Shown: positions 12,130 to 64,000 of the stretch, piece after piece
Numbering within the stretch: the first letter of the stretch is position 1
Layout of the letters: the number at the start of each line of letters is the position of its first letter
Program-made: the position numbers and the translations under genes
The notes under the pieces: model-generated
Database searches by the model: none
Told to the model about the DNA's origin: nothing
Seen by the model: the letters and a program-made list of their open reading frames with translations, nothing else
Assembly (NCBI GenBank): GCA_964036045.1
Contig: OZ038392.1
Coordinates: forward strand, 21,664,090-21,728,089
DNA length: 64,000 nucleotides
Source of the DNA: Eutreptiella sp. 'Long Island Sound 2002'
Lineage: Eukaryota; Euglenozoa; Euglenophyceae; Eutreptiales; Eutreptiaceae
Direction of reading: 5' to 3'

Positions 12130-13691
12130 AGCGAAAAAAAACAACTGACAGTCGGAAAGTGGGGGCAGGGAAGGAAGTTCTATGCTGGGGCACTGATCTT
12201 TGGGGCTCGGCTTCAGTGCGGGGCTCTGATCTTGCGATACGCCATACATACATACATACACACACACAGAGAATGCATCAATGCAAAGAAAACATGATCG
12301 GCTCCAGCTAGGACAGCGAAAAATGTCGTTATTTGGTCACCATTGTCCAGCAGAACATTGCATTGATTCAAGCATTCACATCAGCGAGTGAGAGTGCGCA
12401 TCACTGATACAGGTGCAAGGTGAAGTCAACATGGGAAGCAACTTTGGGGTCGGAAGTGGTTGCGCGTGTGGTGTACACAGATACACACGCATCTGTGTAT
12501 GGGTGTTTCACCAGGGGGAGGGGAGGCCATTTGAATGCATAAAGAGCGGAATATTCACACCATTTGGGATTTTGGCCAAATGTCATCATTCCCAGGTGGG
12601 GAAAACTGTACCCCCTCAATATTGAGCATATCGACTCCAAAGGCAAAGGTTGGAGCCTGGCGTTCATTTCTTTTTCGCCATTATACATCCGCCTTTCGCA
12701 GTTGTCTTACAAACGCCCCTACTTTGAACATGGAGATTTCAAAATTCAGAGTTACGGCTGAATGGGACGGTAGGAAGGAGCAGTGGGGCCTTCAAGCGCA
12801 GACATGTGCTGCAGCAATTCCTTTTTGGCAGATTCTCAAGCCCCGGAATTGGCAAAAAAAATCCTTCAAACCCTCAACATATTGTTGACTTACAACCTAA
12901 GACCTAGACCAGCGGATTGAGCACAAAACCAAAAGCATGTTTTTACCCCCCTTGCGTTGTTTTGGAGTTGTGACGATATGTTGGAACTATGGGCCGGACA
13001 AACTTCACTCACGGGCACCTGTGTAGCACAGAGAGAGGGCTGGCCACAATCGAGACCTGTCCACAGAAAATGGCTGGTGGCTACACCATATCGTTCAGTT
13101 GAGCTCTAACTTGTTCTTTTTTCTTGAATTCTGACACTGAAGAGTTCGGCCATCAAGGAAGACGGTGTACATAGGCAGCTGGGCCTGGAAATATGTACAG
13201 TAAAGGCTGCTTGGCCACAGAGTAGGCTAGATGCGGGTTGTTGGGCACAACCTTCAACGCGAGTTGCGTTGCACAAGCGTATGGCCGTTTGCCAGCGTAC
13301 ACAATTAGTAGATTGCTTCTACATGGCAAACTATATACCACCTGCTCGTGTGCACAACTACATCCCCCACTCTCCGTGCACCTCGTGTGCCAGGACCCTG
13401 CAAGCCCCCTTCCCGCACCCCCGCACATCCTCCTCTTGTGCGCCCTAGAAACAAGGACCCCGCAAAATAGTTATGCCACCAAATCTATTTAGGGTCCTCT
13501 GTTGGGCTCCAAGCAGGTGACCATATTGATTTTCACAATCACCTGGGTGCCAAGAAGGCAAAGCTCGTACGTCCTCATCTACTCCTCTCCGCCATGGGAA
13601 GGCTGAGATTGTGGGAATCTTGGCACCATCTCCCTTCTCCCTTATGTTGGGGCCCGCAAGAAGGTAGGTGTTACATGGCATTATTGCATAC
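12130..13691. other. Conserved flank of unit B
   Basis: Equivalent to 1207-3430 of A without the minisatellite element, and to 26081-27420 of C. It contains the empty insertion site at 12618-12620. No recognisable gene. Confidence 0.5.
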
Positions 13692-24110: not shown

Positions 24111-24888
24111 CAACAAGGCACATCAGCACGAAAACAGTAAAGACTACCGCTTGATGTCGTATTGCATTTTGCTGAGCACTTCCAGAGCTTGCTGTTGCAG
24201 TACACACTACATCCGGTGAAGATGATCTCAACTGATTCCTGGTGCCGGAAGCCGCCATTGCGCAAATGACGCGCGAACTGTTCTTGTAGTGCAGAGCCAG
24301 ATTGCTTTGGAACTTCAGATATGAACACCTGGAGCCCCAAAAAAAACACAGAAATAGCATCCCTCCCTGTGTGCAGCCTTGTGCGCCAATGATGACCATC
24401 ATCTCAAAAGATTTGGAACAGGGTAAACATGACGATGAGATTAATGGCTGAACTGTGCAATCACTGAGTAGTGCCTGAAAATAACCTCTCCCAAACAAAA
24501 CACCACTCCGCTCTGTGCACTGAATACTGCCTCTGAGCAATGTCTGAGCAGGGAAATCTGGGACTGACTGGGCAGACTGCAAACAGTGCAGAAAATGAGC
24601 ATAACAAAACCTTGTATCATCTTGTATATTTTAGAAGACATGGCAGCCGCAACTTCAGCTCGAGCCCCAGCCCCAGCACCAGCACCAGCCCCTGTCCCAG
24701 CTCCAGCCTCAGCCCCCACTGACAAGCTGAGACCATGAGCGTGGAAGGCCAGCTAGATTTTACAAATGGGAGGGCATTCCTTTGTAGAAATCATCCAGTT
24801 GCAATGAACCACCTACCTTACTCCAATGAGAGCCGCCTGTTTGGTGCCCGTCAAATCAGAGGATACCTTCAATTCTTCCTATGCCTAC
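24111..24888. other. Block before unit C, copy of 9951-10735
   Basis: See 9832-10735. It includes the Ala/Pro-coding hexamer repeat at about 24658-24715. It joins the unit C gene through a deletion of about 190 bp relative to B. Confidence 0.55.
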
Positions 24889-26080
24889 TGCGCTTTTCTT
24901 TTGTCCCCATGTTTGGGGTTGTGCCATCGAATGCCATTGGAAAATGTGTCTCCCTACACAATGGTTCAAGCACACCGGATGGATAATGTTCCTGCACACA
25001 CCACGAGCCTTTGTCTGTTGAGAGTTCGTGTGTGTGGACTATTGTCATATACACTGAAGAAGCCAAGACTCGTGTCACCACCGCTGGACCCATTAGTTCC
25101 CCCGGTCTCTTCAGCAAATACGAGGGGGCAGGCTCCTCCATGGAGGACCTCATCGAAGCAATTAGCCAACTGTAGCTCGAAAAAAACCAACCTGTGAAAT
25201 TGTATGCGTACATACACACACAGGCATCAAGCAGTTGATTCCTAACATTTGAGCTGTAATTGCCGAAAGACCATTTAGTAAAGACGTTGCTGCGATGGAA
25301 ATCAACTCTGTCCTTGGCAATAACATAATAAATGTCACCATCATCAGCATAGGCATCAACAAGGTTGAAAGGTGCCTTGAATTCGTTTTCGTAGCGTGGA
25401 TGCAAGCAGTGAAACTCTCCTGCAGCTGACAAGCGTCGGACAATGCTTTTACAATGTGCACGAATTTCCAGATGCATGCTGAGGTATAGGGCTTTCGTAA
25501 AGTTCAACCAGGACACTTGTGTCTGGCGAGTCTTGAAGAATGACCAAGTAACATGCACGTCCGTTCGTCCCTTCACAGTGAGATTTGTTTGAGATAGCCA
25601 AGTTGAAACGTCATATGGGGGGTCGTCGGTCATCCGTAGTGCTGCCATGACACAAAAGTTGTTGGTGGCATCACCATGGAACCTCACACCAAGATGGTGA
25701 CTGAAAGCATGGACATCCAGCACATCTCTCCAAGATACCAAGTCGTTGTTGTAACACGAAGGCCAAGGCAGGTGATTGCAGTCTGAGCCAACGTCAAGCA
25801 ACGCATAGGATTCCACAGGGATCCTAAGTTTCGCGGCAAGAACAAGCACTTGATGTAGAGAGTAAAGTTGATTTGTTAACCCATTGATCTCTGTATGTAC
25901 AAGCACAGTCTTGTTCAGAACAGGATTCTTATTGCAAAAGCCCTTGAAATGGGGATGAATTTCAGAAGGTACAAAGACTGCTCTGTGGTGAATGCCCAGA
26001 AGGTCGCCGTTGACTGATGTGGTCACCAGCATGAAGGCATAGGTGATGAATCTCACCATCATGAGACATACATGAACCAT
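24869..26080 (-). CDS. O-fucosyltransferase-like glycosyltransferase (unit C copy, altered C-terminus)
   Basis: The third copy, open from the ATG at 26080 to the stop at 24869. Compared with unit B it keeps the hydrophobic start, the INGLTNQLYSLHQ motif, HPRYENEF and the SSYSWLIASMR block. It lacks the short TVKVLG-coding hexamer repeat (TGTACC units at about 11115-11135 in B) and ends in KEKRSRHRKN instead of KRPPTSKGST, because the deletion that removed 10735-10920 placed foreign bases at its 3' end. The changed tail lies beyond the catalytic core, so the product could still be active. Conserved motifs free of stops in both B and C, against two lesions in A, suggest selection has acted on this family. 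Confidence 0.66.
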   Translation of the reverse strand: MVHVCLMMVRFITYAFMLVTTSVNGDLLGIHHRAVFVPSEIHPHFKGFCNKNPVLNKTVLVHTEINGLTNQLYSLHQVLVLAAKLRIPVESYALLDVGSDCNHLPWPSCYNNDLVSWRDVLDVHAFSHHLGVRFHGDATNNFCVMAALRMTDDPPYDVSTWLSQTNLTVKGRTDVHVTWSFFKTRQTQVSWLNFTKALYLSMHLEIRAHCKSIVRRLSAAGEFHCLHPRYENEFKAPFNLVDAYADDGDIYYVIAKDRVDFHRSNVFTKWSFGNYSSNVRNQLLDACVCMYAYNFTGWFFSSYSWLIASMRSSMEEPAPSYLLKRPGELMGPAVVTRVLASSVYMTIVHTHELSTDKGSWCVQEHYPSGVLEPLCRETHFPMAFDGTTPNMGTKEKRSRHRKN

Positions 26081-27424
26081 AGCGAAAAAAAACAACTGAC
26101 AGTCGGAAAGTGGGGGCAGGGAAGGAAGTTCTATGCTGGGGCACTGATCTTTGGGGCTCGGCTTCAGTGCGGGGCTCTGATCTTGCGATACGCCATACAT
26201 ATATACATACACGCACACAGAGAATGCATCAATGCAAAGAAAACATGATCGGCTCAAGCTAGGACAGCGAAAAATGTTGTTATTTGGTCACCATTGTCCA
26301 GCAGAACATTGCATTGATTCAAGCATTCACATCAGCGAGTGAGAGTGCGCATCACTGATACAGTTGCAAGGTGAAGTCAACATGGGAAGCAACTTTGGGG
26401 TCGGAAGTGGTTGCGCGTGTGGTGTACACAGATACACACGCATCTGTGTATGGGTGTTTCACTAGGGGGAGGGGAGGCCATTTGAATGCATAAAGAGCGG
26501 AATATTCACACCATTTGGGATTTTGGCCAAATGTCATCATTCCCAGGTGGGGAAAACTGTACCCCCTCAATATTGAGCATATCGACTCCAAAGGCAAAGG
26601 TTCGAGCCTGGCGTTCATTTCTTTTTCGCCATTATACATCCGCCTTTCGCAGTTGTCTTACAAACGCCCCTATTTTGAACATGGAGATTTCAAAATTCAG
26701 AGTTACGGCTGAATGGGACGGTAGGAAGGAGCAGTGGGGCCTTCAAGCGCAGACATGTGCTGCAGCAATTCCTTTTTGGCAGATTCTCAAGCCCCGGAAT
26801 TGGCAAAAAAAATCCTTCAAACCCTCAACATATTGTTGACTTACAACCTAAGACCTAGACCAGCAGATTCAGCACAAAACCAAAAGCATGTTTTTACCCC
26901 CCTTGCGTTGTTTTGGAGTTGTGACGATATGTTGGAACTATGGGCCGGACAAACTTCACTCACGGGCACCTGTGTAGCACAGAGAGTGGGCTGGCCACAA
27001 TCGAGACCTGTCCACAGAAAATGGCTGGTGGCTACACCATATCTTTCAGTTGAGCTCTAACTTTTTTCTTGATTTCTGACACCGAAGAGTTCAGTCATCA
27101 AGGAAGACGGTGTGCATGGGCAGCTAGGTCTGGAAATATGTACAGTAAAGGCTGCTTGGCCACAGAGTAGGCTAGATGCGGGAGGTTGGGCACAACCTTC
27201 GACGCGAGTTGTGTTGCACAATCGTATGGCCGTTTGCCAGCGTACACAATTAGTAGTAAACAACTGCTTCTACATGGCTAACTATATATCACCTTCTCGT
27301 GCGCACAACTACATCCCCACTCTCCGTGCACCTCGTGTGCCAGGACCCCGCAAGCCCCCTTCCCGCACCCCCACGCATCCTTCCCTTGTGCGCCCTAGAA
27401 ACAAGGACCGTGCAATATAGTTAT
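26081..27424. other. Conserved flank of unit C, end of the segmental array
   Basis: Matches B 12130-13480 up to AATAGTTATGCCACCA, after which homology to the array stops. The minisatellite element is absent here (empty site 26569-26571). Confidence 0.55.
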
Positions 27425-40065: not shown

Positions 40066-40672
40066 GCACACAGGGTACGGAGGTGTGCACACGTGTACAC
40101 GGGGTACAGAGGTGTGTACACGTGTACACAGGGTACAGAGGTGTGTACACGTGTACACAGGGGACAGAGGTGTGTACACGTGTACACAGGGTACAGAGGT
40201 GTGTACACGTGTACACGGGGTACAGAGGTGTGTACACGTGTACACGGGGTACAGAGGTGTGTACACGTGTACACAGGGTACAGAGGCGTGTACACGTGTA
40301 CACAGGGTACAGAGGTGTGTACACTGTAAACAGGGTACAGAGCTGTGTACACGTGTACACAGGGTACAGAGGTGTGTACACGTGTAAACAGGGTACAGAG
40401 GTGTGTACACTTGTATACAGCGTACAGGGTTGTGTACACGTGTACACAGCGTACAGAGGTGTGTACGCGTGTACACGCGGTACAGAGGTGTGTACGCGTG
40501 TACACAGGGTACAGAGGTGTGCACAGTTGTACACAGCGTACAGCGGTGTGTACGCGTGTACACAGGGTACAGAGGTGTGTACACGTGTACACAGGGTACA
40601 GAGGTGTGTACACGTGTACACAGGGTACAGAGGTGTGTACACGTGTACACAGGGTACAGAGATGTGTACCCC
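40066..40672 (+). repeat. 29-bp minisatellite with palindromic core, left array
   Basis: About 20 units of 29 bp, each with TGTACACGTGTACA, a perfect 14-bp palindrome containing CACGTG, followed by CAGGGTACAGAG. Variants concentrate around 40321-40560. Because 29 is not a multiple of three and the unit has no stop in any frame, all six frames stay open for 200 codons as Val-Tyr-Thr-Cys-Thr type repeats. These are not genes. Confidence 0.9.
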
Positions 40673-47342: not shown

Positions 47343-47677
47343 GCGACAGGGTACAGAGCTGTGTACGCGTGTACACAAGGTACAGAGGTGTGTACACGTG
47401 CGCATGGGGTACAAAGGTGTGCACACGTGTACACAGGGTACAGAGGTGTGTAGACGTGTAAACAGGGTACAGAGCTGTGTACACGTGCGCACAGGGTACA
47501 GAGGTGTGCACACGTGTATACAGGGTACAAAGGTCGATTTACCTGTACACAGCGTACAGAGGTGTGTACGCGTGTACACAGGGTACAGAGGTGTGTACAC
47601 GTGTACACGGGGTACAGAGGTGTGTACACGTGTACACAGGATACAGAGGTGTGTACACGTCTACACAGGGTACATGA
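47343..47677 (+). repeat. 29-bp minisatellite, right array
   Basis: About 11 to 12 units of the same 29-bp family as 40066-40672, in the same orientation, but more diverged (for example GTGCGCATGGGG and TCGATTTACCTG variants). It directly abuts the reverse transcriptase remnant, as the left array abuts the other end of the same segment. Confidence 0.88.
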
Positions 47678-47900: not shown

Positions 47901-50900
47901 AAAGATTTCTACTGCCTTCGGCAAGTCCACCTCGCAGAGATTCAACCCCAAGCAACACACACCCAAAAAAGGGTAAAGCCTACATAAATAAGGGCTAAAA
48001 CATGCTTTACATAGCTTGGATGGTCATTTTAAGTGATCACAATATCAAAAAAACAAGTTATGAAAACTTCGAGTTTCGAGCTGTCCAAGGTGAAAAACGG
48101 CATAAGCAGGTTGTGTACCAACCCCTTGGGAACCCCCCCCCCCCCCGGAAATAATACCCAAAAATGGTGGAAAACACGTAAATACGGCCTAAAACATGCT
48201 TTACATACCTTGGATAGTCATTTTACGTGATCACAATATCAAAAAAACAAGTTTCGAGAACTTCGATTTTTGAACTGCCCAGGGTGAAAAACCGCACAAG
48301 CAAGTTGTGTACCAATCCCCTGGGAGCCCCCCCCCCCCAACCCCCCCAAGACCTAATGCCCAAATAGGGTGAAAATCATGTAAATACGGCCTAAAAAAAG
48401 CTTTACATACCTTGGATGGTCATATTGCGGGGTCACAATATCAAAAGAATCAGTTTCAAAAGCTTCGATTTTTGAGCTGCCCACGGTGAAAAGCTGCATA
48501 AGCAAGCTGTGTACCGATCCCTTGGGAGCCCCCCCCCCCCCCCCCCGACCTGATACCCAAAAGGGGTGATAAACACGTACACACAGCCTACAACATGCTT
48601 TACATACTTTGGATGGTCATTTTAGGTGATCACAATATCATAGGAATAAGTTTCGAAAACTTCGATTTTTGAGCTCTACAGGGTGAAAAACTGCATAAGC
48701 AGGTTGTGTACCGGCCCATTCACGAGGCCATTATTGGTGGAAACAGCCATTTCGCGTCTTTGGCACGGGTTGTGGGCGGCCCTAAGCAAGGCTAGAGACT
48801 GTAAAAAACGTCCTTCCGTATCCTGGCAGGCATGTACTGTCACAACATCCCCACTCACACCCCTCAAGGTGGGTACCACGGGGTCACTGAGGTCGCCTAA
48901 ACCGCCAACATACCAAAAATGGCTGAAAAAGTGCATCAACTGCATAAGCGCTCGTCCCACTCCGCCCCATACAAACCCTATCGAGTCGGGACCCGGAAAC
49001 ACTTTTTGGGCTCAAAATCGAAAAAAACCAAAAGATTCATGATTTTCGACCCAAATAAAGGGGGGGTCATTTTTTGACCCCCCCCCCACCCCCAGCCCCC
49101 CACCCCCCCCCTCCCTGAAAACCTCAAAAAAGTGGGTTTCAAGTGGGGGGGGTCTGGGTGGGTCCGGACCAAACACTCATTGGGGGATGCATTTATTGGA
49201 CAAAAAAATGATATTACAAGGGGTTAAAGGAACAATTCAACCCCTTAGGGTAGGGTACGCGCATAGGCCCAAAAAAGCCCAAAATGGGGGGGTATGTGGC
49301 GTTTTCCCCTATATACGCCTGCCTGGCTTTGATCTAACAACCTCTGCGAGGTGATTTCTATTGCCTTCGGCAAGTCCGCCTCGCAGAGAATCTGTCCCAA
49401 GCAACACACACACAAAATAGGGTATAAATAGGGTATAAACTAAATAAATACGGGCTAAAACATGCTTTACATATCTTGGATGGTCATATTGTGTGCTCAT
49501 AATATCAAAAAAACAAGTTTCAAAAACTTCCATTTTTGAGCTGCCCACGGTGAAAAGCTGCACAAGCAAGTTGTGTAGCAATCCCTTGGAACCCCACCCC
49601 CCCCCGACCTAATACCCAAATAGGGCGAAAAACATGTAAATACGGCCTAAAACATGCTTTACATATCTTGGATGGTCATATTGTGTGGTCACAATATCAA
49701 AAAAACAGGTTTCAAAAACTTCGATTTTTGAGCTACCTAGGGTGAAAAACTGCATAAGCGGGTTGTGTACCAATCCCCTAGGAGCCCCCCCCCCCCCCCC
49801 CAATACCTAATACCCAAATCGGGTGAAAATCATGTAAATACGGCCTAAAACATGCTTTACATACCTTGGATGGTCATATTGTGTGGTCACAATATCATAA
49901 AAACACTTTTCGGAAACTTCAATTTTCGAGCTGCCCACGGTGAAAAACTGCATAAGCAGGTTGTGTACCAATCCCTTGGACCCCCCCCCCCCCCCCCCCG
50001 CCACGAACCTAATACCCAAATAGGGTGAAAATCATGTAAATACGGCCTAAAAAATGCTTTACATACCTGGGATGGTCATATTGTGTGGTCACAATATCAT
50101 AAAAACACTTTTCGAAAACTTCGATTTTTGAGCTGCCCACGGTGAAAAGCTGCATAAGCAGGTTGTGTACAAATCCCTTGGGAACCCCCCCCCCCCCCAC
50201 CTAATACCCAAATCGGATGAAAAACATGTAAATACGGCCTAAAACATGCTTTATATAGCTTGGATGGTCATTTTAGGTGGTCACAATATCAAAAAAACAA
50301 GTTTCGAAAACTTCGATTTTTGAGCTGCCCACGGTGAAAAACTGCATCAGCAGGTTGTGGGCCGGCCAATTCACTAGGCCATTATTGGTGGAAACAGTCA
50401 TTTCGCATCTTTGGCACGGGTTGTGACCGGCTCTCAGCAAGGCTAGAGACTGCAAAAAGCGTCCTTCTGTATCCTAGTAGGCATATACTGTCACAACATC
50501 CCCACTCCCACCCCTGAGAGTGGATACCACGGGGTTACCGAGGTCGCCAAAACCGCCAACATAGCAAAAAATTCTATTGCCTTCGGCAAGTCCACCTCGC
50601 AGAGAATCTACCGCGAGCAACACACACCCAAAATAGGGTGGAAACTACATAAATACCGGCTAAAACATGCTTTACATACCTTGGATGATCATTTTAGGTG
50701 ATCACGGTATCAAAAAAACAAGTTTCAAAAACTTCGATTTTTGAGCTGCCCACTGTGACAAACTGCATAAGCAGGTTGTGTACCAATCCCTTGGGAGACC
50801 CCCCCCCCCTTGGACCTAATACCCAAATCGGGTGAAAAACACGTAAATACGGCCTAAAACATGCTTTACATACCTTGGATGGTCATTTTAGGTGATCACA

Positions 50901-51380
50901 ATATCACAAAAACAAGTTTCAAAAACTTCCATTTTTGAGCTGTCCGGGGTGAAAAGCTGCATAAGCAGGTTGTGTACCAATCCCCTAGGAGACCCCCCCC
51001 CCCCCCCCCGGACGTGATTCCCAAATAGGGTGCAAAACACGTAAATGCGGCCTAAAACATGCTTACATACCTTGGGTGGTCATTTTGGGTGGTCACAATA
51101 GCAAAAAAACAAGTTTTGAAAACTTCGATTTTTGAGCTGTCCGGGTTGAAAAGCTGCATAAGCAGGTTTTGCAGCCGTCCCTTGGGAGCCCCCCCCCCCC
51201 CCCCCCCCGACCTGATACCCAAATAGGGTGAAAAATATGTACGTACGGCCTAAAACATGCTTTACATACCTTGGATGGTCATTTTAGGTGATCAAAATAT
51301 CAAAAGAAGGAAGTTTCGAAAACTTCGATTTTTGAGCTGCCCGGGCTGAAAAACTGCAATAAGCAGGTTGTGTACCTCCC

Positions 51381-52048
51381 CATTCACTAGGCCATTATTG
51401 GTGGAAACAGTCATTTCGCGTCTTTGGCACGGGTTGTGAACGGCCATAAGCAAGGCTACAGACTGCAAAAAATGTCCTTTCGTATCCTAGTGGGCATATA
51501 CTGTCACAACATCCCCACTCGCACCCCTCAGTCTGGGTACCACGGGTTCACCGAGGTTGCCAAAACCGCCAACATAGCATAAATGGCTGAAAAGGGCATA
51601 AACTGCATAAGCGCTCGTCCCACTCCGCCCCATACAAACCCTATGGAGTCGGGACCCGGAAACACTTTTTCGGCTCAAAATCGAAAAAAACCAAAAGATT
51701 CATGATTTTCGACCCAAAAAAAGGGGCGCTCATTTTTTCGACATTTTTGACCCCCCCCCCACCCCCCCCCACCCCCACCCCCCCCACCCCCCCCCCTAAA
51801 AAGTAGGTTTCAAGTGGGGGGGGTCTAGGGGGGTCCGGACCAAAAACTCATTGGGGGATGCGTTTATTGGACAAAATAATGATTTTGCAAGGGGTTAAAC
51901 TAACAATTCAACCCCTTGGGGTAGGGTACGCGAATAGGCCCAAATGGGGGGGTATGTGGCGTTTTCCCCATATATACGCCTGCCTGGCTTTGATCTAACA
52001 ACCTCTGCGAGGTGATTCTATTGCCTTCGGCAAGTCCACCTCGCAGAG
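51381..52048. repeat. Long spacer of the higher-order satellite, representative copy
   Basis: A segment of about 670 bp that begins CATTCACTAGGCCATTATTG. It contains GTCGGGACCCGGAAACACTT, a C-rich tract, GGACAAAATAATGATTTT and CCTGCCTGGCTTTGATC, and ends in a nested hairpin (52003-52048). Other copies start at 48717, 52833, 60804 and 62379; truncated ones at 50367 and 63568. The two after the transposon carry an extra 130 bp or so between the halves of the hairpin. Confidence 0.8.
52003..52048. repeat. Nested hairpin ending each satellite spacer
   Basis: CTCTGCGAGGTG (52003-52014) pairs with CACCTCGCAGAG (52037-52048). Inside it TTGCC pairs with GGCAA around TTC. At 53465-53512 the outer stem gains one pair (CCTCTG with CAGAGG). 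At 49346-49388 it has one mismatch. Confidence 0.7.
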
Positions 52049-53994
52049 AATCTACCGCGAGCAACACACACCCAAAATAGGGTGGAAACTACATAAATAC
52101 GGGCTAAAACATGCTTTAGATACCTTGGATGATCATTTTAGGTGATCACGGTATCAAAAAAACAAGTTTCGAAAACTTCGATTTTTGAGCTGCCCAGGGT
52201 GAAAAACTGCACTAGCAAGTTGTGTACCAATCCCTTGGGAGACCCCCCCCCCACCCCCGGGACCTAATACCCAAATAGGGTCAAAAAGATGTCCATACGG
52301 CCTAAAATATGCTTTACATACCTTGGATGATCATTTTAGCCGGTCACAATATCAGAAAAACAAGTTTCAAAAACTTCCATTTTTCAGCTGTCCACGGTGA
52401 CAAACTGCATAAGCAGGTTGTGTACCAATCCCTTGGGAGACCCCCCCCCCCCTGGACCTAATACCCAAATGGGGTGAAAAACACGTAAATACGGCCTAAA
52501 ACATGCTTTACATACCTTGGATGGTCATTTTAGGTGATCACAATATCACAAAAACAAGTTTCAAAAACTTCCATTTTTGAGCTGTCCGGGTTGAAAAGCT
52601 GCAATAGCAGGTTGTGTACCAATCCCCTAGGAGCCCCCCCCCCCCCCCCCCCCCCCTCCCGGACCTGATTCCCAAATAGGGTGAAAAACACGTAAATACG
52701 GCCTAAAACATGCTTTACATAGCTTGAAATGTCGTTTTGGATGGTCACAATATCAAAAAAACAAGTTTCGAAAACTTCGATTTTTGAGCTGCCCGGGCTG
52801 AAAAACTGCAATAAGCAGGTTGTGTACCTCCCCATTCACTAGGCCATTATTGGTGGAAACAGTCATTTCGCGTCTTTGGCACGGGTTGTGAACGGCCATA
52901 AGCAAGGCTACAGACTGGAAAAAACGTCCTTTCGTATCCTAGTAGGCATATATTGTCACAACATCCCCACTCGCACCCCTCAGGGTGGGTACCACGGGTT
53001 CACCGAGGTTGCCAAAACCGCCAACATAGCATAAATGGCTGAAAAGGGCATAAACTGCATAAGCGCTCGTCCCACTCCGCCCCATACAAACCCTATGGAG
53101 TCGGGACCCGGAAACACTTTTTCGGCTCAAAATCGAAAAAAACCAAAAGATTCATGATTTTCGACCCAAAAAAAGGGGGGGTCATTTTTTCGACATTTTT
53201 GACCCCCCCCCCCTCCCCCCCCGCCACCCCCGCCACCCCCCCCCCACCCCCCCCCTAAAAAGTGGGTTTCAAGTGGGGGGGGTCGGGGGGGGGGGGTCCG
53301 GACCAAAAACTCATTGGGGGATGCGTTTATTGGACAAAATAATGATTTTACAAGGGGTTAAACGAACAATTCAACCCCTTGGGGTAGGGTACGCCAATAG
53401 GCCCAAATGGGGGGGTATGTGGCGTTTTCCCCATATATACGCCTGCCTGGCTTTGATCTAACAACCTCTGCGAGGTGATTCTATTGCCTTCGTCAAGTCC
53501 ACCTCGCAGAGGATCTATCCCAAGCAACACATACCCAAAATAAGGTTTAAACTACATAAATACGGGCTAAAACATGCTTTACATATCTTGGATGATCATT
53601 TTAGGTGATCACAATATCAAAAAAACAAGTTTCAAGAACTTCGATTTTTGAGCTGCCCAAGGTGAAAAACTGCATAAGCAGGTTGTGTACCAATCCCTTG
53701 GGAGACCCCCCCCCCCCGAGCACCTAATACCCAAATCGGGTGAAAAACACGTAACTACAGCCTAAAACATGCTTTACATAGCTTGGATGGTCATTTTGAG
53801 TGGTCACAACATCAAAAAAACAAGTTTCAAAAACTTCGATTTTTGAGCTGCCCACGGTGAAAAGCTGCATAAGCAGGCTGTGTACCGATCCCTTGGGAGA
53901 CCCCCCCCCCCCCCCCGAGCACCTAATACCCAAATCGGGTGAAAAAAACGTAACTACAGCCTAAAACATGCTTTACATAGCTTGGATGATCATT

Positions 53995-54018
53995 CTTAGG
54001 CGGCCCTATACGCACGTA
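53995..54018 (+). repeat. Left terminal inverted repeat
   Basis: Starts CTTAGGCGGCCCTA; one mismatch (A for T at position 14) against the right end. Confidence 0.88.
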
Positions 54019-54674
54019 ACAAAATTGCCACAGTTCCCAAATGGGTACCACCCCAAAACGGGGGCTGAAAAACCACTTTGAAAAATTGCACAATTGTGCT
54101 TTGCAGGGAACACCCCCAAAAACCTGTGAATTATCCAAAATGACTGTGCGTAGGGGGTACAACACGTGCCAGTCAAAAGTCATATATCCCCTTCAAATTT
54201 GGGCACTGCAGTGTCCATCCAAAGAAAAACCCAATTCTTCGAAATCATCCGCTGCTGCATTTCAAACCACACCGTAAAATGCAACCTAAAAAATGAAGCA
54301 AGGAGGACGACAGGCAAACACATGCAAAACTCTGGTTTGCTTTTTGTTACCGCGTCTGCTGACCCAGTCACTGTGATTGTATGCGAATCGTGACAAATAA
54401 TGCACCACCAGTGGTGCCGACAAACAACGGAGGCGCTGCCAGTGCAGCCAATGCAATAATAATTGACGGCAACAATGCCTGCAAAAGAAGTGGCGCAGCA
54501 GGGGTAAAAAAATGGCGAGTCGCTGAATTTGGGCACTGCAGCGCCCAAAATTACCAAAACATGAAAAAGGGCACCAGTCTCACACCTGCAAAGAACAAGA
54601 CACGCGACAGTGTGCAAATCGAGGCGAAAAAACTACTGACATGGACACAGGCAGTGCCAACCGCGCAACGCAGT
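54019..54674. other. Transposon 3' non-coding region
   Basis: Between the left terminal repeat and the stop of gene B. It contains two palindromes and a further 12-bp palindrome, GCACAATTGTGC, at 54088-54099. Open frames on both strands lack features. Confidence 0.5.
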
Positions 54675-57348
54675 CTACTTCTTCTTTGGTGGAGCCTTCT
54701 TACCCTTGGCCTGACCTACTTTGGCGTGAAACATATTGAGGGGGGTACTGTCCTTGGCCTTTTTGGCTGGCCTTTTGGGGGGATCATCAACCTCATCCCC
54801 ACTGTCGTCGGAGGACGGCTTCTTCTTGCTGGGGGTGCTCCTCTTCTTGCTGTCACCACCTCCGACCAGCACGATCTCGTCATCCTCCTCTTCCTCCACA
54901 TCGTCCCCCCCCTCCTCATCTTCCCCTTCCCCAGGCCGCTGCACCACAACTGGCATACAGTCCCTAATCCTTGGCATCCAAGCGTCCCAGTTAACCAAGT
55001 AGACACAGTCCATCTCCTGCACATACACCGCTAGCTGTTCACAGAACTCGTTAAACAAACCCTGGCGCCCAGTGAAGCAAGCTGCCAGACAGGGGGACTC
55101 AGGAAGGCAGGACAGGAGCTGTGCTGGCAATACAGCCGATGCTGTCAAAAGCAGGAGCCAGACTTCATCCTCGGACTGTCTGTCGCGTCGGGGAACAATA
55201 CCAAGCACACGCAGGAGCCAACCAGCCGCTGCCAGACCAATGGTGCTGCCGTATGCACCCTGATCGCAAATGAAAATATTCGGGACCTTCACCCTAAACT
55301 TGTCGGGGACACAGAAGCAAATAGTCCTCTCCTCGAACCGATAGGTCGGGTGACCGACTGCCTGATCAAAAAAAGAGGTCATAATATACTGCCAGCCTCC
55401 ACACTCCTCAGAGTCGCGCAATTGATTAACCAGGAACTTAACGTCGGCCGTCATTCCACCAATAGCCACAGGTACCAACTTCGCAGCAACCTTCAGCACC
55501 AGCGGATGGATATCGTCCATTTGTTCCTTCGTACACTCAATGAAGACCTGTTGTCAAAAGCACATTTCATTACAGATGGGCACTGCAGTGCCTAAAGTGA
55601 CCAGCAATGCGAAATCGATCCCATTCTTATGCCTAATGGTTGCATACCGCTTTGTACTCCCTCAATGCAATCGTATACGGGATAGCCTTGCCAGGAACCA
55701 ACGCAATTGCCTCTGCCCGAGCTCCGGTTGCTTCAGTCCCATCCTGCGGCTTGTTGAGCCAGATAGTTGTTGATTTCTCCCCATCAGTCGTTGTCACTGC
55801 AGTTTCCTTGACAGGCCTCGCCAGCGCAATCCTCAAGTCAGCCCATTCCTCATCCTGCCACAGCGGTGCTTTCTGGATGGTGTCCCAGCTTGGTAAGGGA
55901 TTTTCGGCACTCCAGGTCCATTTCCCCAGTGACAATTTGGCGGCCCTCGGCGACTTTGCAAGCAGTTTGCGGACTCTTTGCATTTCATGCACGTTCACTG
56001 TTAGAGCAGGAGACCACGGGTACCACTGGGATCGAAACAGCCTTACGTCGTGGGTCCGGGGGGGGGGGGGTCAACAGCGATCGCGCCAGACCCTGCCGCC
56101 CCATAAACATACGTCGAGAAGGATGGATGAGCGTGTTGTCCGGGTGAAGGTACAGCATCTCCCACAGGCGGTCCCGCTTCAACAGTCTGGCCTTGGCATG
56201 TAGTCCTGCGATCTTGGCCCGATCTCCAGCCATGTACAGCAGTATTTCATCCATCTGGTCGCCATGCAGTCCCGTCAACGGCCGCAGAGTGTAGGGGTTG
56301 AGCACTGCAGTGCAAAAATTAGGGTCGCATCGAATTTGGGCACTGCAGCTCCCATGAACACCGAAAGACGACAAAAACAGGTGCTCAGAGGACATAATAC
56401 CTTCACCGGCAGTCTTCTCAAAGGTGTCAATAAACTCAGCCACGCGGCCACCAGATATCTGCAGTAATGAAACCAGCGGTCTCCAATTTTTCCAGATTGA
56501 GTCCTGGCAGGGATACAGTGTTGGACAGGCCACAGGTACGCAAAAGACTGACAACGGTGGTCTCATCGTGCATCTCTCATACCACAGATGTTTTCTCGCC
56601 CAGCCGGCCACACTTCCGCAGAGCCACCAGCAGCATCTCTTACGCTTTGCCCTTCTGCACTTCAGTCCAAATTCGAGCGGCCACTTGTCCCATACTCAGC
56701 TTGCTCACTGAGTGTTGTACCGCATTGTGATCGCCTCCAATAATCTCTCTGATGTCAACAGGACAGTCGTGTCTGATCTCCTCGCAGTAGACGTGTTGTA
56801 ACCAGTCCGGCAGTGCCCGTGACTTCTCACAGTATTCTCGGTGAAGTCTTTGGAGTGCCGTCAGGATATGAGCCCCGCCCAAGCAGTAGGGAATTTCAGC
56901 TGATAGAAAAATGCACCACAGGGAGATGGGAGATGGGAGATATCAGCGAGATGGGCACTGCAGTGCCCAAACGACCAGACTGTGTGAAAATTACGACGCG
57001 TGTGTGACAGGATGGTAGTGTACCTTCGTTTCGCCATATGAGAATGTTTGAGATAGGCCGGCAGGGTGGATTTGTCCTCAGGCTTGCGATCCGCGATAGT
57101 ACTGAGTCCTCGTCCCTCTCTCTGGTCTGCCCACGCGTGAGGTCGGTGTCAAACTTTATCTTGGTCAGCTGTATCTTGACCAGCTCCTTTTTGATCCACG
57201 TTGTCCGGAATGTTTCCGTTGCCCGGTCTGTCCCCGTCCGCTTCACTGGAGCCTGCCCCGACTGCGCCCGTGTCTTCTCTGCTGTGTGAACGGCTTGCGA
57301 TGCGGTCTGCTGCTCATCCCCTTCCGGCAGTTCGGTATCCGAAGGCAT
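54675..57348 (-). CDS. Gene B of the transposon: spliced accessory protein, partly damaged
   Basis: Starts at the ATG at 57348 (MPSDTELPEGDEQQ). Supported exons and introns: exon 57348-57024, intron 57023-56900 (GTACAC...CTATCAG; joins NILIWRNE to Ala-EIPYCLGGAH), exon 56899-56644, a damaged stretch 56643-56354 with stops and frame changes, exon to 56047, intron 56046-55998 (GTAAGG...TAACAG), exon 55997-55648, intron 55647-55548 (GTATGC...CAACAG; joins EYKA to VFIEC), and exon 55547-54675. The early LGGAHILTALQRLHREY resembles the Gly-Gly-x-His turn of ParB-like domains, but this is weak. The C-terminal part has no domain I know and ends in a long acidic stretch (EDEEGGDDVEEEEDDE) then a Lys-rich tail to KKAPPKKK, as in chromatin-binding proteins. 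It probably acts with gene A in the nucleus. Confidence 0.5.
55548..55647 (-). other. 100-bp intron of gene B containing a palindrome
   Basis: Minus strand GTATGC at 55647-55642 to CAACAG at 55553-55548. Splicing keeps the frame (EYKA|VFIECTKEQMDD). It contains the palindrome at 55578-55593. Read unspliced, the frame stops within four codons. Confidence 0.75.
55998..56046 (-). other. 49-bp intron of gene B
   Basis: GTAAGG (56046-56041) to TCTAACAG. The join gives DPR-LNVHEMQ. It has no palindrome, unlike the other two supported introns. Confidence 0.5.
56900..57023 (-). other. 124-bp intron of gene B containing a palindrome
   Basis: Donor GTACAC (57023-57018), acceptor TTTTTCTATCAG ending at 56900. 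The split codon G/CT gives Ala. It contains the palindrome at 56953-56968. Confidence 0.72.
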
Positions 57349-57429
57349 AGCTTAGCAAAGGGGCTAACAAAGGGTCACACGACAGACTACAAAAGGCCAC
57401 AGGGCTGCAAATTGTTGACTTACAGGCTT

Positions 57430-59729
57430 CTAATGTTGATGACTACTGGCAGCGCTCGACGATTGAACACAGATGGCAGAAATGGCATCACAGTCGGATG
57501 CACCTGGTAAAAATCGAGGGTCAAACTCATTCAGCTCCGAAAGGACAGCCACGGGGGCGTCGGAATCATCACTTTGAACAGACACTGCTTCTTGGGGGGG
57601 GGGGGTCCGGGTCCCATCCATCATCACCCACAAAATCCCTCAGGTCTGGATCTCCGGCTGCCCCACCAGCGGGGGGGGGGGTCCTCATCACTGTCACTGT
57701 CGCCATCAGCATTGGGGGGGGCGGGTATCCGGGTGGGGTCCCTTTGCGCAAAAGCGCGTGCTGGCCGGCGTCGCTTGTACCGGTCTGGTGTATTACATGC
57801 GCGTAACATGTCCTGTGCCTGTGCTACTGTTGTGTCCATATCACCTGGAGGACGTTGTGGCACGTATCTACCCAGCTCTGTCATCACGTCAGCATCAACT
57901 TTAACAGGTTTAACAAGTGTCTGCAATGTCTTGGCACATAGATCTTGGTAATGCTCTGCAGTGAGCACCGTATCTAGTGCGCAAGGAAAATCCATCTTGG
58001 CAGGATCCCACCTGTCTTGCACGATACTCGACTTCTGACTGGACCAGACCAGGCGGGGTATAACACCAACATCAAATCGCGCCATCAATCTGGTGAAACG
58101 ACGATCAACCAGTTGTGGCAGTCCCTTGGGAACATTAACGTACTGCAAGTCCTTTGGGGTCTGGTCTGCAACGGGAGTGAGTATAAACAGGTCATGCACC
58201 TGTTGCAACGTACAGTTCCCAGGGTGTTGTGCCATTAAGTGCACAACACGGCTTAACAGGGCCTCACACGGTTCCTCACTGTGTGCCACCCCAGGTAAGC
58301 GGGCAAACCACTGGGACCACAACAGCCTAGCAACAACAATGGTGCGCACATATTCAACCTTGTCCTCATAACCTAGGGTGAGCCTCAGAAGGACGTGTAG
58401 GCAACGGCTCAACAATGGCCCTGCAGCGTGCTGCTCTCCCTGTGCAGAACAATGACAATCCCTCACTTGCGACCCAATAATAAACAAGGCTGGAATGTAA
58501 CCATACAACAGTGTTACCAACCCTTGCACCTGTGTAAGAAGTGTGCTGTGATTAGCGTTACCCGGTCGGTGCAAACCCCTTAGAGTCTGTAACTTTTGTT
58601 CCAAAGGTTGGCGCCACTTATGGGCCAAGTGCAAGAGCACCAGAATCATACGCTCCATATAGATGAGTTTCGGAAAGTTGGGCACCGCAGTGCCCAAATT
58701 GAGTGAACCATAGGAAAAATAGGTAAATAAAGGGAAGAATCTTCTGTAGCACAGGGTTACACAATATTTATATGGGTGCCATGTGCCATACACTACCGGG
58801 GTACGTGTAATGAACAGGGGCACGTTGTACCGAGCATAGCTGATGCTGTAAACGAGCTTAAGGACACGGTAGTGAATATTTTCGTCGACCAACAATGGAA
58901 AACGGTGCTGTGTGTGCTGCTGCACCTCCTGGAGCCCGTGAATAATAGAGACAAGGTCGGGGGTAGCGGAAACAGTTAGGTCTGTGAGAAAAAAGGGGGT
59001 CCAAGCTGGGCTGGTAACATTAGCCCGTCGTATGTCCAAGGGGCAACGAACATGTTGAAGGCGGATGGGGTCGTCCATCAACCCTTGCAAGCCATCAATG
59101 AAGTTTTTATGGCTCTGCACCAACAAGTCTGCAGTGTACCCAATCCTCTGCCGCAAGACCGAGAGGCTAGGAAAAGACGGCATAACGTCAACAGGTTGTT
59201 TCAAGAGTATGATAGCACCAGCTGTACAATTAAGGGACCGGTTCTCATTACCAGGCACAGGCCGGAAGTTACGTCTATAAAAATTATCAAACCATAGAAC
59301 AGCGGGTTTACCTTCCAAGGTCTGCCAAAGACTGGTGCACACAGTTGCTCCTTGAACTGCAAAGGAGGGTACATGGTAAGAACATTGACCCATATGAGCC
59401 AAACACCTACGTTGCACACGACTCTTGGGTTGAACACCTACAGCCCTCTTGGCACATGGACGACACCTCTTGTGTAGAACAGACCATATAGTAAAAATCT
59501 CTTGCTCAGCAACACGGAACCATTGGTCCGGCAGACAATTAACGGTCCGCCTGTCCCTTTGTTGGATGTATTCACCAACGGACCGCCTACTTCTCCACTC
59601 CAACCGGAGATCTAACACCCACGTACAAAACGCATCGGCACCCTTATCCACACCCACAGCCTCAGATAGATCCTCCTTTGAAGCATATACCTTCGAACTA
59701 AGGAACTGCCGGAAGGGAGCCGCATCCAT
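57430..59729 (-). CDS. Gene A of the transposon: probable transposase
   Basis: An open stretch of about 700 codons. I place the start at the ATG at 59729 (MDAAPFRQFLSS), because the frame upstream is hydrophobic and ends in an acceptor-like CTGCGAACAG, probably an intron or untranslated leader. Numbering from that start: a Cys/His cluster CRPCAK...CLAHMGQCSYH at about 89-119, which could bind zinc; VLWFDNFYRRNF at about 144-155; PLLVDENIHYRVL at about 278-290; GTWHPYKYC at about 315-323. The two Asp-centred motifs are candidates for the first and second metal ligands of a DDE/D nuclease. The tail is acidic (DGDSDSDED). Two G/C runs (57671-57681 and 57594-57605) each need a one-base shift to keep the acidic tail (DPDLRDFVGDDGWDPD, then SVQSDDSDAPVAVL) open to the TAG at 57430. 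One palindrome falls in frame as LGTAVPN. The family is not recognised. Confidence 0.55.
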
Positions 59730-60483
59730 GGACAAAAGTCCTGTTCGCAGGCAGCAAAGGTAAGGGGACAAAGAAAACAGAGACACTATCACAAAATAAA
59801 CCTGATGCGGCATAGACCAAAAGCAGCTAGCGAAGATCCAAACAATGTATCCCCCAATGGACGTGGAACGTTCCAAAGCCTGGGTACACTCCAAGGTGGC
59901 AGTCAGACAACCGGCAATATATTTTCAAGGAGCAGAGGATGAGTACCAACGTCCGATGATTCATAAGTCCTTTGTCAGGTGTTACACAATGGGAACCAAT
60001 AGGAGTGAAATACGGAGTTTTAAATTTTTTGGACACTGCAGTGCCCAAAAGTACTGGAAGTCCATTTTCAAGTGCACATTTGGACAGGAATGGAAGTGAT
60101 TGGGCAAGGTACATTGTTCGTGGCCTTCCGAGTATAATGCCGCGGTGCGATGACCCATTGATAACGGGTATGCCAAGTTTTGATGCATGCTGCTGCAGTA
60201 TGACATCACCTGTGGAGATGACTACAGAGGTGTACTAAAGAACCCACTGAAAAAAGCCATTTCAAATTTTTGGGCAAGGCAGTGCCCAAAAATCATAAAT
60301 GATACAATTTTCAGCCCGGAATAGGGGGTGTATACGTACACCTCTGGAAGCAACAAAAGGCGAGGTTGTTGTATCCCACGATGAAAATCGACGTGGGGTT
60401 GGCCAAAAAATTGATATGCTTTTTTGGGGGGCAAAAAACGGATGTTGAAATCGCCATGAATCGTGCCTTTTAGCAACGAAGTC
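59730..60483. other. Transposon 5' region, likely promoter side
   Basis: Upstream of gene A on the minus strand, with two palindromes and no clear gene. A leader exon and intron may lie at 59740-59900. The transcription start could not be placed. Confidence 0.4.
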
Positions 60484-60507
60484 TACGTGCGTAAAGGGCC
60501 GCCTAAG
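60484..60507 (-). repeat. Right terminal inverted repeat
   Basis: Read inward it starts CTTAGGCGGCCCTT. It is followed by the second TCATT copy. Confidence 0.88.
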
Positions 60508-63500
60508 TCATTTTGAGTGGTCACAACATCAAAAAAACAAGTTTCAAAAACTTCCATTTTTGAGCTGCCCAGGGTAAAAAACTGCATAAGCAGGTTGTGT
60601 ACCAATCCCTTGGGAGGACCCCCCCCCCCCCCGCACCTAATACCCAAATCGGGTGAAAAACACGTAAATACGGCCTAAAATATGCTTTACATACCTTGGA
60701 TGGTCATTTTGACTGGTCACAACATCAAAAAAACAAGTTTCAAAAACTTCGATTTTTGAGCTGCCCAAGGTGAAAAGCTGCATAACCAGGTTGTGTACCG
60801 GCCCATTCACTAGGCCATTATTGGTAGAAACAGCTATTTCGCGTAGTTGGCACGGGCATTTGACGGGCCCTCGGCACAGCTACAGACCGCAAAAAACGTC
60901 CTTTCATATCCTAGTAGGCATATACTGTCACAATCTCCCCACTCACACACCTCGGGGCGGGTACCATGGGGTCACCAAGGTCGCCAAAACCGCCAACATA
61001 CCAAAAATGGCCGAAAAGTGAATAAACTGCACAAGCGCTCGTCCCACTCCACCCCATACAAACCCCATGGAGTCGAAAATCGAAAAAAACCAAAAGATTC
61101 ATGATTTTCGACCCAAAAAAAGGGGGGGTCATTTTTTCGACATTTTGACCCCCCCCCCCACCCCCCCACCCCCCCCCACCCCCCCACCCCCCCTAAAAAG
61201 TGGGTTTCAAGTGGGGGGGGTCTGGGGGGGTCCGGACCAAAAACTCGTTGGGGGATGCGTTTATTGGACAAAATAGTGATTTTACAAGGGGTTAAACTGA
61301 CAATTCAACCCCTTGGGGTAGGGTACGCGCATAGGCCCAATAAGGCCAAAATGGGCGGGTATGTGGCGTTTTCCTCTACATACGGCTGCCTGGCTTTGAT
61401 CTAACAGCCTCTGCGAGGTGATTTCCATTTTTGAGCCGCCGAGCCCGGAAAACTGCAGAAGCAGGTTGTGTGCCCTAGACCCCTTGGCCCCCCCCCCCCC
61501 CCCCACACACCCAAATAGGGTGAAAAACACACGAAGAGGGGCCAAAACATTCTGTACATAGGTGATTCTATTACCTTCGGCAAGTCCACCTCGCAGAGAA
61601 TCTACCCCGAGCAACACACACCCAAAATAGGGTGGAAACCACATAAATACGGGCTAAAACATGCTTTACATACCTTGGATGATCATTTTAGGTGACCACG
61701 GTATCAAAAAAACAAGTTTCGAAAAGTTCGATTTTGAGTTGCCTGGGGTGAAAAACTGTATAAGCAGGTTTTGTACCAATCCCTTGGGAGCCCCCCCCCC
61801 CCCCCCACCCGGACCTAATACCCAAATAGGGTGAAAAACATGTACATACGGCCGAAAACATGCTTTACATACCTTGGATGGTCATTTTAGGTGGTCACAA
61901 TATCAAAAAAACTAGTTTCGAAAACTTTCATTTTTGAGCTGCCTAGGGTGAAAAACTGCATAAGCAGGTCGTGTACCGATCCCTTGGGAGACCCCCCTCC
62001 CCCCCCCGGCCCCCCGGACCTAATACCCAAATCGGGTGAAAAACACGTGAATACGGCCTAAAACATGCTTTACATACCTTGGATTGTCGTTTTAGGTGGT
62101 CACAATGTCAAAAAAACAAGTTTCAAAAACTTCCATTTTTGAGCTGCCTAGGGTGAAAAACTGCATCAGCAGGTTGTGTACCAATCCCTTGGGAGACCCC
62201 CCCCGCCCCGGACCTAATACCCAAATAGGGTGAAAAACATGTAGATACGGCCTGAAACATGCTTTACATACCTTGGATGATCATATTGTGTGGTCACAAT
62301 ATCATCACAAGTTTCGAAAACTTCCATTTTTGAGCCGCCCAGGGTGAAGAACTGCAATAAGCAAGTTGTGTACCGGCCCATTCACTGGGCCACTATTGGT
62401 GGAAACAGTCATTTCGCGTCTTTGGCACTGGCATGGACCGGCCCTCGGCGGGGCTAGAGACTGCAAAAAATGTCCTTCTGTATCCTAGTAGGCATATACT
62501 GTCACAACATCCCCACTCACACCCCTCAGAGTGGGTACCACCGGGTCACCGAGGTTGCCAAAACCGCCAACAGGGCAAAAATGGCCGAAAAGTGCATAAA
62601 CTGCATCAGCGCTCGTCCCACTCCGCCCCATACAAACCCCATAGAGTCGGGACCCGGAAACACTTTTTCGGCTCAAAATAAAAAAAAACCCAAAGATTCG
62701 TGATTTTCGGCCCCAACCCCCCCCCCCCCCCCCACCTCCCTGAAAACCTCAAAAAAGTGGGTTCCAAGTGGGGGGGGGTCTGGGGGGTCCGGACCAAAAA
62801 CTCATTGGGGGATGCGTTTATTGGACAAAATAATGATTTTACAAGGCGTTAAAGTAACAATTCAACCCCTTGGGGTAGGGTGCGCGAAAAGCCCCAAAAA
62901 AGCCAAAATGGGGGGGTATGTGGCGTTTTCCCCTATATGCGCCTGCCTGGCTCTGATGTAACAACCTCTGCAAGGTGATTTCCATTTTTGAGCTGCCGAG
63001 CCCGGAAAACTGCAGAAGCAGGTTGTGTGCGCTAGACCCCTTGCCCCCCCTCCCCCACACACACACCCAAATAGGGTGAAAAACACACGAAGGGGGGCCA
63101 AAACATTCTTTACATAGGTGATTGTATTGCCTTCGGCAAGTCCACCTCGCAGAGAATCTACCCCGAGTAACACACACCCAAAATAGGGTGGAAACTACAT
63201 AAATACGGGCTAAAACATGCTTTACATACCTGGGATGATGATTTTAGGTGATCACGGTATCAAAAAAACAAGTTTCGAAAACTTCGATTTTTGAGCAGCC
63301 TAGGGTGAAAATCTGCATAAGCAGGTTTTTGAGCAGCCTTGGGTGAAAAACTGCATACGCGGGTTGTGTACCAATCCTTTGGGAGACCCCCCGCCAGAAC
63401 CTAATACCCAAATAGGGTGAAAAACACGTAAATACGGCCTAAAACATGCTTTACATACCTTGGATGGTCATTTTACGTGGTCACAATATCAAAAAAACAG

Positions 63501-64000
63501 GTTTCGAAAAGTTCGATTTTTGAGCTGCCTGGGGTGAAAAACTGCATAAGCACGTTGTGTACCGGCCCGTTCACTAGGCCATTATTGGTGGAAACAGTCA
63601 TTTCGCGTCTTTGGCACGGGTTGTGAACGGCCCTAAGCAAGGCTAGAGACTGCAAAAAAAGTCCTTCCGTATCCTAGTAGGCATATATTGTCACAACATC
63701 CCCACTCGCACCCCTCAAAGTGGATACCACGAGGTCACCGAGGTCGCCAAAACCGCTAACATAACATAAAAACTTCGGTTTTTGAGCTGCCTAGGGTCAA
63801 AAGCTGCATAAGCACGTTGTGTACCCATCCCTTGGGACCCGCCCCCCCCCCCCCGTGGACCTAATACCCAAATAGGGTGAAAAACACGTGAATACGGCCT
63901 AAAACATGCTTTATATAGCTTGGATGGTCATATTGTGTGGTCACAATATCAAGAAAAACAACCGCCGGAAACTTCGATTTTTGAGCTGCCCAGGGTGAAA
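60508..64000. repeat. Higher-order satellite, right part
   Basis: Resumes the monomers exactly where the left part stopped. Spacers start at 60804 and 62379, with a truncated one at 63568-63770. In the first two, a 130 to 150-bp block (TTTGAGC(C/T)GCCGAGCCCGGAA ... ACATTCT(G/T)TACATAGGTGATT) sits between the two arms of the hairpin. The array runs off the end of the window. Confidence 0.85.

Follow-up and report, generated by a model that had tools for sequence, protein, structure and literature searches.

A DNA transposon of 6,513 bp that carries two genes is inserted in a satellite array of Eutreptiella sp. 'Long Island Sound 2002' (assembly GCA_964036045.1, contig OZ038392.1). The stretch analysed here (the window) comprises 64,000 nucleotides of this contig, and positions without a contig name are numbered from its first letter. 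The element is one copy of a repeated, formerly mobile family of two-gene DNA transposons. We consider it likely that this is an autonomous-type element of a probable new superfamily, in which gene A encodes a DDE transposase and a dimeric protein made by the element binds palindromes specific to each family. The new observation is that dispersed, family-specific palindromes occur in related families of the same genome.

The transposon has exact boundaries and belongs to a repeated family

A sequence-only reading of this DNA had delimited a transposon with exact boundaries, and this observation was confirmed. As it had claimed, the element ends in 24-bp inverted repeats with one mismatch: the left terminus (53995-54018, CTTAGGCGGCCCTATACGCACGTA) and its inverted partner (60484-60507) are 96% complementary over 24 nt, and a TCATT duplication is present at both element ends. 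The empty site that it had reconstructed in the host satellite was also recovered. When the element was removed and both TCATT copies were retained for the junction comparison, the satellite matched itself over 2,955 bp (88.7%, offset 1,444), with the second arm of the match crossing the junction and the repeats aligning across the joined flanks. This offset is consistent with the satellite period of 1,452 bp given in that reading. The satellite around the transposon (49000-53994 and 60508-64000) has a sub-unit of about 196 bp and higher-order units of about 1.44-1.45 kb, and its matches are mostly 84-90% alike, the most distant being about 75%.

In the 2.28-Gb genome, the 13-base terminus has 259 forward and 234 reverse exact matches, compared with 6 and 6 for a reversed-pattern control. 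Thirty-one terminal pairs were recognised among the first 100 places listed, which makes 32 with the window copy, and an exact 5-bp target duplication was found in 28 of these 32. The pairs compared first gave 25 of 29; L025 has AATTT on both sides when its true right end is taken, and among three long pairs two have a 5-bp duplication while the third matches at 4/5 positions. L022 and L023 have 6-bp duplications, and the L017 pair, which belongs to another family, has no target duplication among the 32 pairs compared. The 25 duplications tabulated represent 22 different pentamers, leaning to A/T at positions 1 and 3. Copies ending elsewhere, which would have spoken against the proposed boundaries, were looked for; the copies end at the same boundaries and have differing 5-bp duplications. 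Thirteen are full-length (6.48-6.53 kb, 95.1-98.3% identical), others have internal deletions with intact ends, and a set of 3.4-kb elements can be aligned with the 6.5-kb element only at its ends, over about 622 and 239 bp. Two of these 3.4-kb elements, L022 and L023 (C2:32476561-32480556 and 32487200-32491195), are separated by about 10.6 kb, point in opposite directions and have 6-bp flanks that mirror each other (AACTTC and GAAGTT); they are probably a single insertion that was duplicated along with its surroundings.

Gene A is predicted to encode a DDE transposase

The motifs LWFDNF, LLVDENIHY and WHPYK, pointed out in gene A from the letters, are present and also conserved among its relatives. 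Beyond these, the gene has a third acidic motif, SEExCEALL, which, like the dispersed palindromes described below, had not been listed in the sequence-only reading. In the genomic copy L018, the open frame of gene A starts at MDAAPF and has 696 codons, and its C-terminal end varies among copies at a run of C. A strong match to a known family was looked for, but none was found above noise in Pfam or NCBIfam, in agreement with the earlier failure to place the element in a known superfamily; the 13 members of the gene A alignment (A3), each scanned against Pfam, gave noise only (best E 0.086). Among 5.8 billion proteins, 6 relatives were detected by a single-sequence search (E <= 0.01) and 11 by a profile search (E <= 1) in which the best 8,000 candidates were scored.

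The AlphaFold2 model of gene A (13 rows) has a pLDDT of 79.5 and a pTM of 0.73. In this model, D148 lies in strand 143-150, D282 directly follows strand 279-281, and the SEExCEALL stretch comes after a mostly helical region. The top Foldseek match was Hermes (E 0.055 and 0.060, prob 0.60 and 0.84), with nothing at E <= 0.001. The comparison with DDE folds, which had been proposed as a check, was borne out by VIA-align re-ranking: the P element (9.7), Hermes (9.0) and Transib (8.0) came out on top, lower rows included ISCth4 (6.8), RAG (6.4) and Mos1 (4.1), and 17 rows in all scored above the first unrelated row (3.4). Conservation among the gene A proteins is high at D148 (9/9), D232 (10/10) and D282 (11/12, with Asn in P0005), and E485, E486 and E489 are each kept in 12/12. 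An RNase H fold with an acidic triad is thus predicted from the model matches together with the conservation of D148, D282 and E485/486/489, and gene A is predicted to be a DDE transposase whose RNase H core is split by a helical insertion.

The transposase of the related L051 family (C8:7347300-7353300; P0005) has Asn in place of the second catalytic Asp that is kept in 11 other proteins. Both L051 copies examined have target duplications despite this replacement; either a different residue serves, or the element moved in trans.

Differences among the 13 copies bear on past selection. In gene A, those shared by at least two copies fall at third codon positions in 23/47 cases versus 70/248 for singletons (p = 0.0095), and the last exon of gene B behaves likewise (12/19 versus 35/108, p = 0.018). 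The exon 4 stretch of gene B shows the opposite trend (4/20 versus 33/73, p = 0.07), and the three stretches pooled give 39/86 versus 138/429 (p = 0.025). Because shared differences favour third positions, these data modestly suggest that gene A and the last exon of gene B were under selection before the copies scattered.

Gene B is a spliced partner with an acidic, Lys-rich tail

The claim of a spliced partner with an acidic and Lys-rich tail stood up in the comparison with other families, in which the gene B relatives have such a tail too, indicating a real gene; its intron positions remain predictions. One gene B frame that is continuous in L018 is split in the window copy near a G run at 56058-56070, and the window copy is therefore probably no longer autonomous. 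When the exons of four families were spliced by hand and the N-terminal parts compared, the motifs D.D, G..R, PP, LGG.H, W, D.P...R and G.H were found to be invariant and in this order. G..R followed by LGG.H recalls the two ParB/Srx boxes.

The gene B profile, compared with the PDB at E <= 10, matched only six sulfiredoxin-1 sequences (E 0.003-0.012, counted as one hit), and there was no relevant match in Pfam or NCBIfam. When the five reference frames were scored against 4,000 shuffles, the sulfiredoxin-like one alone stood out (16/4000 as high), whereas for the other four reference frames 701 to 2283 of 4000 shuffles scored as high. An hhalign comparison with a small ParB set was not significant (P 0.12, versus 0.14 for an unrelated control). 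The ParB_N model found 10 places in the whole genome, too few for the copies of gene B, and the 8 stretches fetched resemble ParB or, on C1, sulfiredoxin, and none resembles gene B. The AlphaFold2 model of gene B was poor (pLDDT 41.8) and uninformative on the fold. The reading of gene B as a ParB was therefore not upheld, with the profile searches, hhalign, the shuffle test and the genome-wide ParB_N scan all against it; a ParB/sulfiredoxin fold is weakly suggested and is a lead, not a result.

Frames of bacterial-type ParB were seen on the small contigs C1696, C1228, C953, C2055, C1235, C1386, C1801 and C1262 (the first six of which were fetched), which suggests that the assembly contains contaminating bacterial sequence or that of a symbiont.

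Related families carry their own palindrome arrays

Nine near-copies of TTTGGGCACTGCAGTGCCCAAA occur in the 64-kb window, all within the element, where 0.33 would be expected; with the count based on a 14-base core and up to 2 mismatches, no such site was found elsewhere in the window. Genome-wide, GGGCACTGCAGTGCCCAAA was found at 620 + 602 places (reversed control 0 + 0), and among the 100 places listed many lie inside the fetched element copies. The palindromes were rejected as introns or introner elements: site 7 is within a nearly ungapped gene A coding stretch, and other sites are outside the genes.

Three elements with the same or a similar terminus, L017, L049 and L050, code for proteins related to A and B, with identities of roughly 23-36% in the longer pieces. 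The L050 element is 5,640 bp long, starts with CTTAGGCGTCACAAG and is inserted in a copy of the window family with GAGGA on both sides. A genome search with P0005 gave at least 67 matches, most at 83-100% identity, two at 67-73% and seven at 32-35%. The first group is the L051 family, whose element is 7,203 bp long with termini CTTAGACGAACC.../...GGTTCGACTAAG, fixed by comparing two copies, and the two copies examined have duplications AAGCA and CAACA. The last group is the L052 lineage, for which element ends were not found.

Four families besides that of the window carry palindromes of their own, about 20 bp long, at 6-19 scattered sites each and mostly outside gene A: CTGGCCGAAATTTCGGCCAG in L050 (8-9 sites), CCTATCGAAATTTCGATAGG in L051 (19 sites), TCTTCCGAAATTTCGGAAGA in L052 (14 sites, in an unbounded stretch) and GAATGAGC-N4-GCTCATTC in L017 (6-7 sites). 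L049 has only three degenerate sites of the L017 type. When up to 5 mismatches were allowed, none of the window, L050 and L017 elements contained a palindrome of either other type. The palindromes of three families have the core CGAAATTTCG in common, combined with family-specific arms, and these families fall in one six-row clade of gene A (support 94/98; drawn open, with L050 a fragment).

Palindrome families were also recovered de novo, with 8 sites in the window element, 8 in L050, 4 in L017, 1 in L049 and 7 in L019, whereas in 40 shuffles of each of these five elements the largest family had at most 1 site. Seven control stretches of the window gave counts of 11, 3 and 2, then four of 1. 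Arrays in the control stretches lie at 40112-40459 (GTGTGTACACGTGTACACAG, 29-bp spacing) and 47359-47475 (a similar 20-mer, 58-bp spacing); they are apparently tandem repeats, unrelated to the scattered sites of the transposon. Genome-wide, TGGCCGAAATTTCGGCCA was found at 7,450 places (reversed control 0). The segment C1:15670112-15673186 is dense in L050-type palindromes (16 sites listed in about 3.1 kb) and may be a short, site-rich non-autonomous element.

The sites avoid the gene A coding stretch: in three families, only 2/37 lie within it versus 11.4 expected (P = 0.0002, with the L050 bounds approximate), and the counts are 0/14 in L052 and 0/6 in L017. Moreover, the left and right arms vary independently (57 sites, five families); the paired arm cells, as observed/permuted mean, were 78/79.5, 85/85.9, 170/167.2, 140/137.3 and 59/62.4. 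Such independent variation suggests a DNA site with two halves to which a dimer binds, rather than a hairpin. Among the 13 recent copies of the window family, the palindrome sites vary at least as much as other positions; this agrees with drift once the copies had inserted and is no direct proof of function.

Proposed roles of gene A, gene B and the palindromes

In the mechanism that we favour, the gene A protein would cleave the DNA at the terminal repeats and insert it into the target with a 5-bp stagger. A dimeric protein encoded by the element, most likely the gene B product, would read the dispersed palindromes by binding to them, and through these sites the copies of a family would be recognised as its own. 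The most likely role of the sites would be to maintain expression of the copies, or prevent their silencing, over their whole length, in the way that VANC acts on VANDAL elements, while helping to assemble the transposition complex is a less likely one. A more specific version, which we regard as unlikely, is a new DDE superfamily with self-recognition as the eukaryotic element's counterpart of ParB-parS: a gene B dimer of ParB/sulfiredoxin fold would sit on the palindromes and mark the chromatin of its own element, serving expression, anti-silencing or synapsis, and protein and sites would diverge together with each new family.

The palindromes could instead be transposition sites, with the transposase or gene B folding the whole element into a synaptic complex. 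Consistent with this, five families carry arrays, seven sites are kept in each of the six non-autonomous 3.4-kb elements scanned (6/6; 7 fetched), and 4/7 sites of L019 fall outside the parts that blastn matched to the 6.5-kb element. However, the sites are spread along the whole element, including predicted introns, and not only near its ends, and the internal-deletion copies L030, L033 and L034 have only 5 sites and normal duplications, so that they either moved in this state or were deleted after moving; a role of this kind seems rather unlikely. That the palindromes spread passively within families as short repeats, by gene conversion or a host process and with no reader, would agree with the absence of extra constraint among recent copies, but it does not account for a dyad with independently varying half-sites, the avoidance of gene A, the CGAAATTTCG core that three families of one clade share, each with arms of its own, or the retention of sites in derivatives, and we find it quite improbable. 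RNA hairpins, such as intronic ones or small-RNA decoys, would suit those sites that lie in predicted introns and non-coding stretches; as a function of the palindromes they are disfavoured and very improbable, since the arms do not covary and the paired cells are near the permuted mean in five families.

The question of superfamily has an alternative answer as well, namely that the element is a divergent member of hAT, P or the CACTA/EnSpm-Mirage-Chapaev-Transib group and not of a new superfamily. The best structural matches are indeed the P element, Hermes (hAT) and Transib/RAG. The CACTA-to-Transib group has a C(2)C motif and mostly 5'-CA..TG-3' termini. According to PMC12730594, its duplications are 2-5 bp long, a range that includes the 5 bp seen here, and hAT5 families with 5-bp duplications exist. 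On the other hand, no Pfam match above noise, to hAT or to a VANDAL-type Mutator-like transposase, was obtained with any of the 13 alignment members scanned singly, nor was sequence similarity to hAT found, and a P-element or THAP domain was not found by Pfam profile. The C(2)C motif is also missing (no CxxC between D282 and E485 in 12/12 proteins), and the termini are CTTAG...CTAAG instead of CA..TG; those of the window, L017, L050 and L051 families all begin with CTTAG, and the two ends of L049 read CTCAG and CTTAG. Membership in a known superfamily is therefore rather improbable in our view. A viral origin was rejected, with no BFVD structural match at E <= 0.001; a search of viral contigs with one pattern found no relatives.

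If the probable new lineage stands, it would add a group of DDE transposases with few detectable relatives. Through its palindrome arrays, a single genome would supply several natural combinations of DNA-binding protein and cognate site, of which three have the same core and arms that differ by family, and such pairs would make self-only recognition by selfish elements directly testable by a binding matrix.

Features of the window

The coordinates of the element and its parts are collected in Table 1. Elsewhere in the window, two open frames on the minus strand, of 480 aa (10897-12336) and 472 aa (24872-26287), share a weak O-fucosyltransferase signal, below the cut-off and at the same place in each, and are perhaps duplicates.

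Table 1. Features of the transposon (positions in the window).
Feature	Position	Strand	Basis or remark
Whole transposon, 6,513 bp	53995..60507	-	termini, duplication, genome copies; genes on minus strand
Target site duplication TCATT, left copy	53990..53994	.	flank comparison
Target site duplication TCATT, right copy	60508..60512	.	flank comparison
Terminal inverted repeat, 3' end in gene orientation	53995..54018	+	24 nt, one mismatch
Terminal inverted repeat, 5' end in gene orientation	60484..60507	-	partner of the 53995..54018 repeat
Gene A, predicted DDE transposase, 701 codons	57624..59729	-	start taken at MDAAPF
Gene B, spliced partner with acidic, Lys-rich tail	54675..57348	-	exons predicted
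Gene B predicted exon 1 (GQTR motif)	57024..57348	-	end approximate; GT-AG boundary placed by eye
Gene B predicted exon 2 (LGGaH, R..G.H motifs)	56585..56900	-	approximate ends
Gene B predicted last exon, acidic/Lys-rich tail	54675..55553	-	292-aa open frame
Palindrome site 1 (consensus TTTGGGCACTGCAGTGCCCAAA), 3 mismatches	54198..54219	.	palindrome scan
Palindrome site 2, 1 mismatch	54528..54549	.	palindrome scan
Palindrome site 3, 3 mismatches	55575..55596	.	palindrome scan
Palindrome site 4, 4 mismatches	56297..56318	.	palindrome scan
Palindrome site 5, 4 mismatches	56335..56356	.	palindrome scan
Palindrome site 6, 2 mismatches	56950..56971	.	in predicted gene B intron
Palindrome site 7, 2 mismatches	58677..58698	.	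within gene A coding sequence
Palindrome site 8, 1 mismatch	60028..60049	.	upstream of gene A
Palindrome site 9, 2 mismatches	60269..60290	.	upstream of gene A

Comparison with known systems

A lineage with CTTAG...CTAAG termini, a 5-bp duplication and two genes was not found in Pfam, NCBIfam or the literature searched, which was chiefly non-subscription; 'undescribed' is meant in this sense, with Repbase and Dfam outside its scope. The element has the features of class II elements of the DDE/RNase H type, namely inverted termini and a fixed-length duplication (exactly 5 bp in 28/32). It resembles the P element, hAT (Hermes) and Transib/RAG1 in its predicted RNase H core with Asp/Asp/Glu candidates, its inverted termini and short duplication, and the large, mostly helical stretch ahead of the Glu. 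It differs from all three in its termini and in lacking the C(2)C motif, and no sequence or Pfam relation to them was found. P and Hermes make target duplications of 8 bp, whereas here the duplication is 5 bp (hAT usually has 8 bp, with 5, 6 and 7 known) and a second conserved gene is present. CACTA/EnSpm and Kyakuja-Dileera-Zisupton (KDZ) elements are likewise large DNA transposons of eukaryotes and often carry more than one gene. Their duplication lengths and termini differ from those found here, with 3 bp for EnSpm and 7-8 bp for KDZ in PMC12730594. Overall, the element works like DDE transposons and probably represents a new superfamily with an unusual regulatory layout.

For the palindromes and their presumed reader, ParB/parS offers a partial likeness, in that several palindromic sites accompany a partner protein with N-terminal G..R and LGG.H motifs; the ParB profile comparison, however, was not significant, and 4/5 reference frames did no better than many shuffles. 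VANDAL elements are Mutator-like elements of Arabidopsis. As described in PMC5735166, their accessory protein VANC binds a family-specific 9-base motif, which lies in tandem repeats, is mainly non-coding and differs between related families, and removes silencing. The elements described here are alike in outline, with a family-specific, mainly non-coding motif that differs between families and a candidate accessory protein, although their sites are palindromes of about 20 bp, mostly single and scattered, and the likeness is one of layout. By this analogy, VANC of VANDAL would be the closest functional parallel.

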